20,070 nt of DNA from a virus, in IMG/VR virus record IMGVR_UViG_3300024320_000057, positions 1-20,070 of that record; one strand, 5' to 3'. A model generated the notes under the pieces. That model was not told the DNA's origin, made no database searches, and saw nothing but the letters and a program-made list of their open reading frames with translations. This document shows, piece by piece, positions 6,111-10,158 of the stretch (positions are counted from its first letter, which is position 1; each line of letters begins with the position of its first letter). Position numbers and translations under genes: made by a program.

Positions 6111-6578
6111 TTATTCATTAATATATTCATTGTATTCGTGGAGAGCATCAATCCTTGCAATGTATGCTTCTTCTTCTGTGTCGTATTTTCCTAAGAAATA
6201 TGTCTTACCTCCTAAACAAGCCTGCGCTCTGTATTTATTCTCATCAAAATACACTCCAGTATATTTACTTGTTTTATCTTTCTTATCTTTTGAGCAGTTT
6301 ACCCTGTGTGTAACTAATTGCAGGTTATCTACTCTATTGTTTTGTGGATTGTTGTCAATATGGTCTACAACTACCTTATGACCACATCTTACGTGACCTA
6401 AAAATGTTTCAGCTATAAATAAATGAGACCTCATTTTATATTTACCTAAATGAGTCATTGGATAACCAGACTTATCGATATATTGTTTTAATATTTGACC
6501 TTTAAGTCCTTTAAACCTTCCCTTGCTTGATACTTTGTATCTTTTGTCGTAAGGATATTCTTTCCAGATTTCTTTCAT
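6111..6578 (-). CDS. HNH homing endonuclease with NUMOD4 and AP2 domains
   Basis: The 155-aa protein has three modules in order: NUMOD4 (residues 1-30, IWKEYPYDKRYKVSSKGR), HNH_3 (52-97, with HLFIAETF, VDHIDNNPQNNRVDNL and LVTHRVNCSKD) and an AP2 DNA-binding domain (105-150, KYTGVYF...YRAQACLGGKTYFLG). His73 of DHID and Asn81/Asn85 fit the beta-beta-alpha metal active site, so it looks intact. It is encoded opposite to the surrounding genes, with its own terminator. Its 5' flank starts inside a set of degenerate repeats (6582-6764), the nearest copy ending only a few bases from the start codon. It is a free-standing mobile endonuclease. Confidence 0.92.
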   Translation of the reverse strand: MKEIWKEYPYDKRYKVSSKGRFKGLKGQILKQYIDKSGYPMTHLGKYKMRSHLFIAETFLGHVRCGHKVVVDHIDNNPQNNRVDNLQLVTHRVNCSKDKKDKTSKYTGVYFDENKYRAQACLGGKTYFLGKYDTEEEAYIARIDALHEYNEYINE

Positions 6579-8616: not shown

Positions 8617-8726
8617 CAGAAGTGTATTAAAGTCGCTTAGAAGTCGTTTAACGTAAAATCAGATATTAGAATACTTAGTTACAAATGCTCAAGAATTTAA
8701 CAGGATATTATATGAATTCACAAATC

Positions 8727-9491
8727 TTAATCAATTAACGTATATCTTTTCTTCATAAATGTTTTATGTAATCCATTCATAAAGTACCATACTTGGCTTT
8801 GAGATTTACCTACTTTTTCAGCAAACGTTATGTAGTTATGTTTTTCAACTATACCAGTATGATTATCTAATACATTTTTAAAGTTAGATTCTTTAGGTCT
8901 ATTCTTATATAGAACGTATCTATTGTATAACTTTTTTCTGTCTTCATTAAGGAATCCATTTATTGTATGTTTATTACAGCCTATGGTGTTGATTAGTTCT
9001 TCTTTAGTAGCTGTTATTTTTTCTTCTGTTTTAAGGTCAAATATATCGTATGTTATGCCATTAAATATAAATTCTTTATTTAGTTTAGGTCTATATTTTT
9101 CTATCCATTTCTTTTCATACTTATCTAATGATTTAACATCATTAACGGCTCTAACATAGACGTCATCAAAATCTTTATCTTTTATATGACTACTTATTCT
9201 TCCTAACAAGCTACCATTAGATTTACCTATATAAACTAACTCCTCATTCTTTAGTAAGAAGTAAATATACTTATCTTTATTAGACAGAAGTATATTTTTT
9301 ATATCGAATCTTTCGTAGTTTTCTTTGTTGAAAACAACTCTCGATTCTGATACTTTCTCATAGTTAATATACTTAACACCAACTTCACTTCGTTTTTTAT
9401 TTAAAACTTCGTTACGTTGACGAACGCAAGGTTTACAATGTCCAGAACTATAGCGTTCTGTGTCTTTATTACAATTATTACAATATTTCAT
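8727..9491 (-). CDS. GIY-YIG homing endonuclease with N-terminal zinc ribbon
   Basis: The 254-aa protein starts with a zinc-ribbon-like knuckle (Cys4, Cys7, Cys19, Cys22), followed by a GIY-YIG nuclease: YIY (75-77), VYIG (86-89), Arg98, Glu126 in KYEKKWIEKYRPKLN. The C-terminal 110 residues hold two helix-turn-helix-like modules of NUMOD1 type (about 148-195 and 206-254), each ending in a short basic stretch. All expected catalytic residues are present. It differs in architecture from the GIY-YIG protein at 977-1558, so the two are not recent duplicates. It lies on the - strand next to a non-coding, inverted-repeat-rich segment. Confidence 0.85.
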   Translation of the reverse strand: MKYCNNCNKDTERYSSGHCKPCVRQRNEVLNKKRSEVGVKYINYEKVSESRVVFNKENYERFDIKNILLSNKDKYIYFLLKNEELVYIGKSNGSLLGRISSHIKDKDFDDVYVRAVNDVKSLDKYEKKWIEKYRPKLNKEFIFNGITYDIFDLKTEEKITATKEELINTIGCNKHTINGFLNEDRKKLYNRYVLYKNRPKESNFKNVLDNHTGIVEKHNYITFAEKVGKSQSQVWYFMNGLHKTFMKKRYTLID

Positions 9492-9527
9492 AATCTATTT
9501 TATATCTTAATATTAATACTAATTAAC

Positions 9528-9713
9528 GCAACCCTCCTATACATTTAAGTTTCTTACTTGCTAAGTAAGTGGTTAGCTATTATACTGGTTAGTTTGAATA
9601 TCAGCTGGGTTGCATTACGAAATGTATAAAGGATACTGATGCAATTACTAAACAGATTTAATTTAACTGAACCAAGTGCCTTACAATTATGACACAAGTT
9701 TGGTAGTATCCTT
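9528..9713. ncRNA. candidate structured RNA with pseudoknot-type pairings
   Basis: No gene lies in 9492-9894, yet paired segments are frequent: GCAACCC 9528-9534 with GGGTTGC 9607-9613; TATACATTT 9538-9546 with AAATGTATA 9620-9628; hairpin CTTACTT-GCT-AAGTAAG 9553-9569; AAGGATACT 9629-9637 with AGTATCCTT 9705-9713; ACCAA 9671-9675 with TTGGT 9700-9704. The first two cross in order, as in an H-type pseudoknot. TTGCAT 9610-9615 can pair instead with ATGCAA 9639-9644, giving a possible switch. G-U extensions of the 3' helices fit a + strand RNA. No tRNA, tmRNA or group I intron core was recognised. Confidence 0.45.
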
Positions 9714-9740
9714 ACTCTCTACTACAATATAACGAAATAA

Positions 9741-9789
9741 TTTATTTTTAGTTGATAAAAATTATCGTTTATCGATAACTATAAATAAA
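9741..9789. repeat. imperfect long inverted repeat
   Basis: TTTATTT (9741-9747) and AAATAAA (9783-9789) enclose further complementary blocks (AGTT/AACT, ATAAA/TTTAT), forming a near-continuous hairpin. An alternative inner stem is TTATCG/CGATAA with a 5-nt loop. There is no T run typical of a terminator on either side. Confidence 0.45.
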
Positions 9790-9841
9790 TAATATAGTAT
9801 GTTACATTTCTATAAGTTTTATCTATTGTAGTTAAACATTA

Positions 9842-9883
9842 CCAAACCTCTACATAGTGGATGCTACGATACGTGAGGCTTGG
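9842..9883. repeat. inverted repeat downstream of the lipoprotein gene
   Basis: CCAAACCTC (9842-9850) faces GAGGCTTGG (9875-9883). Read on the - strand all nine positions pair (one G-U); on the + strand one A-C mismatch remains. It lies 12 nt past the lipoprotein stop and could end or stabilise the - strand transcript, though no T run follows in that direction. Confidence 0.4.
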
Positions 9884-9894
9884 CTTTGTTATTT

Positions 9895-10158
9895 TTATAG
9901 TTTTATTTTCTCATCTCTTAAATCACATATTACAGAACCTTTAGCTTTTTCATCATTAGTTTCTATAATCTTCCAGAACTCTTTACCACAAGGTAATCTA
10001 AGTAATGTTTCATACCTGTTATTGTCTTTAAGGGTAGAACTCTCTACTATACCACAGAAATCCTTATCACTATTACACTCTATTGGCTGTTCATATTCTT
10101 CTACACAAGAAGAAAAAGTTAATACTAATGCTACTACTAATAATTTAATTGCTTTCAT
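9895..10158 (-). CDS. small lipoprotein, probably surface-exposed
   Basis: The 87-aa protein has a signal peptide (MKAIKLLVVALVLTFSS) ending at a lipobox with Cys18. The residues after the cysteine are V-E-E; acidic residues at this place resemble the lipoprotein export signal that sends lipoproteins to the cell surface in Flavobacteriia. The mature part has four more cysteines (28, 35, 57, 78), enough for two disulphides, and ends in a basic tail. It is the last gene of the - strand operon, 5 nt after its neighbour. Small phage lipoproteins such as T5 Llp block receptors against superinfection; that role is plausible here but unproven. Confidence 0.72.
   Translation of the reverse strand: MKAIKLLVVALVLTFSSCVEEYEQPIECNSDKDFCGIVESSTLKDNNRYETLLRLPCGKEFWKIIETNDEKAKGSVICDLRDEKIKL

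Follow-up and report, generated by a model that had tools for sequence, protein, structure and literature searches.

Between a GIY-YIG endonuclease gene and a lipoprotein gene of an uncultured virus lies a short stretch of DNA dense in inverted repeats, and the question is whether it encodes a structured RNA and, if so, what such an RNA might do. The locus belongs to IMG/VR record IMGVR_UViG_3300024320_000057, analysed here over positions 1 to 20,070 (20,070 nt, the window). A preliminary description made from the letters alone had listed five pairings in positions 9528–9713, two of them in the order of an H-type pseudoknot, and had proposed a new structured RNA with alternative folds. All five pairings are present (Table 1), and the region is indeed free of genes, being flanked by the GIY-YIG gene and by the lipoprotein gene (9895–10158, minus strand). 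The element is there, but it is larger than 9528–9713: it takes up about 9526–9733 of the minus strand, preceded by a promoter-like box of its own. The virus is a tailed phage, probably with a host in the Flavobacteriia, as suggested by weak similarity of its tape-measure protein to those of Cellulophaga, Nonlabens and Flavobacterium phages, by the TAnnTTTG box of a short form of the RNA (see below) and by gene style.

Table 1. Features of the RNA, its box and the adjoining gene in the window, followed by the pairings of the preliminary description
Feature	Position	Strand	Sequence, partner or remark
Promoter-like box	9729..9753	−	AACTAAAAATAAATTATTTCGTTAT; score 16.7; class RAACA-N13-TTnAGTTATC of relatives
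Whole RNA	9526..9733	−	span as matched by covariance model R1 (148 bits, E 8e-27), whose training set includes the window copy
Hairpin A region	9703..9725	−	in the window GTAGTA 9720-9725 / TACTAC 9703-9708
Hairpin B	9672..9703	−	CCAA 9700-9703 / TTGG 9672-9675
Hairpin B, inner stem	9691-9695 / 9676-9680	−	GTGTC / GGCAC
Hairpin B, invariant 4-nt bulge	9696-9699	−	ACTT
Invariant single strand after hairpin B	9667..9671	−	NUCAG
Helix d, 5′ strand	9647..9655	−	CTGTTTAGT; partner 9585-9593, one T x C mismatch
Conserved AATTGC	9641..9646	−	UUG pairs with CAA of 9594-9599; pairing read from sequences
Helix c, 5′ strand	9636..9640	−	ATCAG; partner CTGAT 9600-9604
Helix a, 5′ strand	9620..9628	−	TATACATTT; partner 9538-9546
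Helix b, 5′ strand	9607..9613	−	GCAACCC; partner 9528-9534
Helix c, 3′ strand	9600..9604	−	CTGAT
Invariant ATTCAA	9594..9599	−	between c′ and d′
Helix d, 3′ strand	9585..9593	−	ACTAACCAG
Hairpin D	9553..9569	−	variable region between d′ and a′
Helix a, 3′ strand	9538..9546	−	AAATGTATA
Helix b, 3′ strand	9528..9534	−	GGGTTGC; 3 nt (GGA) after a′
GIY-YIG endonuclease gene (PF01541)	8727..9491	−	36 nt downstream; neighbour, outside the RNA
Described pairing, helix b	9528-9534 / 9607-9613		GCAACCC / GGGTTGC
Described pairing, helix a	9538-9546 / 9620-9628		TATACATTT / AAATGTATA; crosses GCAACCC/GGGTTGC
Described pairing	9629-9637 / 9705-9713		AAGGATACT / AGTATCCTT
Described hairpin	9553-9559 / 9563-9569		CTTACTT / AAGTAAG
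Described competing pairing	9610-9615 / 9639-9644		TTGCAT / ATGCAA; read from sequence

Relatives of the element

The region is unchanged in two IMG/VR contigs (L002 and L003). A search with the GIY-YIG protein led to L027 and L028, whose DNA upstream of the gene holds a diverged, recognisable copy of the RNA on the same strand. A gapped pattern made from common words gave 48 matches in IMG/VR, corresponding to 21 sequences at 97% identity, and a third pattern added about nine further diverged full-length members as well as a shorter form. Pattern scans of IMG/VR yielded about 30 distinct full-length relatives, and all members are metagenomic contigs. Diverged full members are also detected by covariance model R1, strongly for L243, L254, L264, L284 and L315 and more weakly for L294, L285, L259 and L292. 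A 14-base search pattern (CTTGGNTCAGTTAAA) was dropped as too loose, and the three matches of a pattern search of genome contigs were taken as chance.

The RNA of the window and those of L028, L158, L162, L173 and L176 have no match in Rfam 15 at gathering or relaxed thresholds (sensible E ≤ 1), and a tRNA/tmRNA search of the window returned none. Searches of several members by blastn against phage isolates gave no match to the RNA, only short ones at its AT-rich flank. Among flavobacterial-type phage genomes, model R1 has no match in phi10:1, P12024L and 11b, nor has model R2 in these three and in the initial 45 kb of Maribacter phage Panino; neither model matched any of 395 Bacteroidota genomes, searched with strict filters and without positive control. 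The RNA was not found described in a literature search. The proposal of a new structured RNA is upheld and extended: both the RNA class and its fold are new, while its biochemical role could prove to be of a known type.

Covariation and a triple-crossing core

Among the checks that the preliminary description had named were a comparison with shuffled sequences and a search for covariation in relatives. In the single sequence, the signal is only modestly above chance: of 2000 dinucleotide shuffles, 69 also contain two perfect helices that cross, one of 9 bp or more and one of 7 bp or more, and nested folding of the minus strand is better than that of shuffles (z = −2.1). A plus-strand RNA was rejected (nested folding z = −0.35). 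It is the relatives that decide, and there the covariation is strong. Seven helices (A, B in two parts, d, c, a and b) were written on a MAFFT alignment (A1), in which 87.3% of helix cells pair. Both sides are changed in 27 pairs and 146 cells, against 18.6 pairs and 46 ± 5.6 cells in shuffles, and when the partners are slid by 1–3 columns at most 25 cells are doubly changed. RNAalifold by itself finds helices B and c and counts 10 compensated pairs out of 14. In the automatic alignment helix a is broken or displaced in some rows, and 76% of its cells are paired. Among the variants observed are AUCUAU/AUAGAU, GGUGUU/AGCACC, GUUAGU/ACUAAC and others for helix c, and GCACCC/GGGUGC, GCGGCCC/GGGCCGC and UGAUGCCC/GGGCAUCA for helix b.

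Read along the RNA, the strands come as c, a, b, c′, (d′, variable hairpin), a′, b′, an arrangement in which each of the helices a, b and c crosses the other two. Helix c continues through UUG/CAA into d, and the 5′ strands of a and b lie in the loop of this c–d stem, with their partners further 3′; by eye, UUG/CAA becomes CUG/CAG in L264, L284 and L315. A topology-only search, independent of sequence, found three crossing helices with matching offsets in L264, L284, L315, L294, L285, L259 and L292, while per sequence 0–1 of 60 shuffles do as well. The pseudoknot order noted for a and b is thus correct, both helices being kept by compensatory changes, and it extends to a higher order in which a, b and c cross, covary and persist in distant members. 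On these comparisons it is nearly certain that the locus encodes a conserved structured RNA of about 200 nt with a triple-crossing core.

The supposed alternative folds fared differently. The pairings AAGGATACT/AGTATCCTT and TTGCAT/ATGCAA are not conserved among relatives, and the 9553–9569 hairpin lies in a variable region. What is conserved is a set of helices (A, B, c, d, a and b) that can all form together, four of which (A, B, c and d) had been missed. Two other readings of short words were rejected: AGGAGG at the a′–b′ joint as a Shine–Dalgarno sequence, since it is not universal, and CTGATG/CGAAA as hammerhead-like, the order being wrong. A terminator was looked for directly after b′, and no consistent signal was seen.

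The 5′ module and a short form

Hairpins A and B form a 5′ module that covaries in its own right: across 36 sequences, 82 cells are doubly changed against 25 ± 4.8 in shuffles and at most 10 with slid partners. Helix 1 of hairpin A covaries in relatives, and the window copy is divergent. The ACUU bulge and the NUCAG tail are invariant and unpaired, and they suggest a protein site.

The module also occurs alone. In the short form, found weakly by model R1, hairpins A and B are followed by UAGGGGG and a polypyrimidine (U/C) tract of 60–80 nt (records L236, L239, L248, L256, L260, L263, L271, L274, L281, L298, L313 and L321). It is placed between lysis genes (holin/endolysin) and recombination genes, in either orientation. 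A TAnnTTTG box, the consensus of the Bacteroidota −7 box (PMC7366714), precedes hairpin A by about 7 nt in 11 of 15 short-form copies, where 0.8 would be expected.

Genomic setting

At loci with flanking DNA, the gene that follows the full-length RNA is usually on the opposite strand, typically 350–550 nt away, and the RNA itself usually stands at the end of a short operon or apart from it. Since the next gene is usually on the other strand, the RNA is regarded as a stand-alone gene; it is not consistently upstream of same-strand genes, as a cis-regulatory leader would be. The exceptions are the window and L027/L028, where a same-strand GIY-YIG gene follows the RNA after 36 or about 130 nt. 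The position upstream of that gene, mentioned in the preliminary description, proves incidental: in most full-length relatives the RNA is not followed by a gene of this kind, no RNA lies upstream of the closest GIY-YIG homologue (L026, 63%), and in L203, L211, L219 and L202 other endonuclease genes stand in front of the RNA. The endonuclease would therefore be a neighbour at an often invaded site and not a partner.

Homing-type endonuclease genes, GIY-YIG-like or HNH-like by sequence, repeatedly flank the RNA (L203, L211, L219, L194, L202 and the window at 8727–9491), as if the site were a hot spot for them.

A promoter-like box of a probable late class

Full-length members have in common an upstream box, RAACA-N13-TTnAGTTATC. 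When eight whole contigs were scanned together with the window, using a weight matrix trained on 21 RNA sites, 27 sites scored at least 14, and seven of these precede RNAs. Of the other 20, in RNA-positive contigs, thirteen lie within 80 nt before a gene start, compared with 10% of random positions, the matrix being one trained on RNA sites; box scores before non-RNA genes varied. Among the genes so preceded are those for the large subunit of terminase (PF04466, E 3e-33) and for a head protease of XkdF type (PF14550), and the gene that opens the divergent tail operon (phrog_32199). The box is likely a phage late promoter, and from its occurrence before both the RNA and virion operons we infer that the RNA is expressed late, at the virion stage. 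It is likely to be an independent, stand-alone late RNA gene.

In L340–L356 the same motif stands upstream of genes for terminase, head protease, tail and other virion proteins.

RNA or helix-turn-helix gene in one slot

Two close relatives (L004 and L005) share structural genes with the window at 92–94% DNA identity over large parts, yet have no RNA; the segment 8682–9737 is replaced there by other genes, including one for a 135-aa helix-turn-helix protein. Five of six RNA-negative relatives have this gene, against none of 21 records with the RNA; these counts come from fragments and from lineages that are not independent, so that the replacement is a lead and not a proof. The records with the gene are L004, L005, L013, L014, L017, L018 and L026, and in L004 and L005 it occupies the slot of the RNA; RNA-negative G005 has neither.

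Proposed role and alternative explanations

The preferred reading, which we consider fairly probable, is that of a stand-alone late non-coding RNA acting in trans via a protein partner and aiding late gene control or assembly. The RNA would be made late in infection and code for nothing; once folded it would act in trans, its 5′ module holding the protein partner and its core serving as a rigid scaffold, and would help late gene control or particle assembly. Late transcription control and assembly are the two roles held most plausible, and a protein-binding trans-acting RNA is our best guess. Few phage RNAs of such complexity are known, and almost none with a known function. The fold described here is compact, covaries strongly and occurs in dozens of uncultured marine phages, and it has no counterpart in Rfam or in those sequenced phages that were searched; it also offers testable handles, namely a 5′ module that can stand alone, an association with the late promoter class and the choice between RNA and protein at one slot. 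Among known systems, GOLLD and ROOL are also phage-encoded, highly structured, pseudoknotted and stand-alone, with function likewise unassigned; GOLLD is induced around lysis (PMC12286853). However, those RNAs are far larger and often lie beside tRNA islands, whereas the window has no tRNA, and the Rfam searches gave no match to their covariance models. Flavo-1, Bacteroidales-1 and other motifs (PMC2864571) are likewise structured RNAs of Bacteroidota, but they are in Rfam and none is matched here.

The idea of a leader or riboswitch of the GIY-YIG gene, working by the fold switching of the preliminary description, agrees with the same-strand gene of the window and L027/L028, but most members have no such gene, the homologue in L026 has no RNA and the competing pairs are not conserved; as most members have no downstream same-strand gene, the RNA is not a leader, and this reading, largely refuted, is highly improbable. 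Even less credible is a remnant or mobile self-splicing intron with its homing endonuclease: a complex pseudoknotted RNA does lie beside a homing-type endonuclease gene, but Rfam yields no group I or II match, no gene is split, no exons are seen and the endonuclease is usually absent; a group I intron in particular was rejected because, in addition, the order a b a′ b′ with its 3-nt joint differs from the P3–P7 order. Processive antitermination of the put/EAR type, in which the two-hairpin 5′ module would bind the emerging RNA polymerase and cause read-through in cis, is unlikely, though there is a resemblance by description. HK022 put, about 70 nt long and made of two stem-loops, comes directly behind an early promoter (PMC9378689); the A–B module, two hairpins in about 65 nt, lies in the short form within about 7 nt of the TAnnTTTG box, at the presumed start of the transcript, and L262, L293 and L298 have same-strand genes behind it. 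In almost all full-length members and in most short ones, however, the genes that follow are on the opposite strand, so that read-through would have no target; put acts in cis on terminators of the same-strand genes behind it, which most members do not have, and is without the triple-pseudoknot core added here.

The RNA might do at a late-control locus the job that the helix-turn-helix protein does in sister phages, perhaps with polymerase or a sigma factor as its target, in the manner of 6S RNA. In the records searched the two are mutually exclusive in the same slot, the helix-turn-helix is weakly of the LuxR/sigma-70 region-4 type and the box before the RNA is of the late promoter class. Yet slots near phage operon boundaries exchange cassettes freely, G005 has neither element, and RNA-negative G001 and G002 keep the same box before a virion gene (MKIVQPITSEQ), so that use of the promoter is independent of the RNA; such transcription control is judged improbable. 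The broader thought that a widespread late RNA class with a triple-crossing core stands in for a DNA-binding regulator, sister phages having either the RNA or the helix-turn-helix protein in one slot, as an RNA-based controller of the virion-production switch or of assembly, is offered as a rather unlikely one. A packaging or assembly RNA like phi29 pRNA, which would bind portal or terminase and be needed for head filling, has a slim chance. The size is similar (phage RNAs of about 170–200 nt), and the promoter class is common to terminase and head protease genes, a possible link to packaging. The phage pRNA family is included in Rfam, where the present RNA has no match, and L004 and L005 keep near-identical structural genes without it, so that a strict requirement of the RNA in packaging is unlikely.

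Other elements around the RNA

Several further features were observed near the RNA. A conserved non-coding repeat lies on the minus strand of the window at about 8640–8730, with a consensus close to TTGAATTCATnnAAnTGnnnTACT..CATTCATTTTACGT and in one or two copies; in most relatives it is found 100–400 nt downstream of the RNA, between converging operons, and it may be a replication origin or a regulatory site. An intergenic element at 9832–9898 (minus strand) contains the inverted repeat CCAAGCCTC/GAGGTTTGG. It is 98.5% identical in L004, although the genes that follow differ, and is kept in L005; its exact core occurs only in the copies of the window's own phage (two contigs) and in the L004 and L005 contigs. 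This element is possibly a second structured element or a terminator. Behind a GP88-family gene (PF17338; 7460–8393, plus strand) stands a small ORF; such ORFs are paired with this gene in many RNA-positive phages, and the GP88 gene adjoins the RNA in many long-form loci. Finally, a free-standing NUMOD4/HNH_3 endonuclease gene is found at 6111–6578 on the minus strand, opposite to the surrounding early genes.
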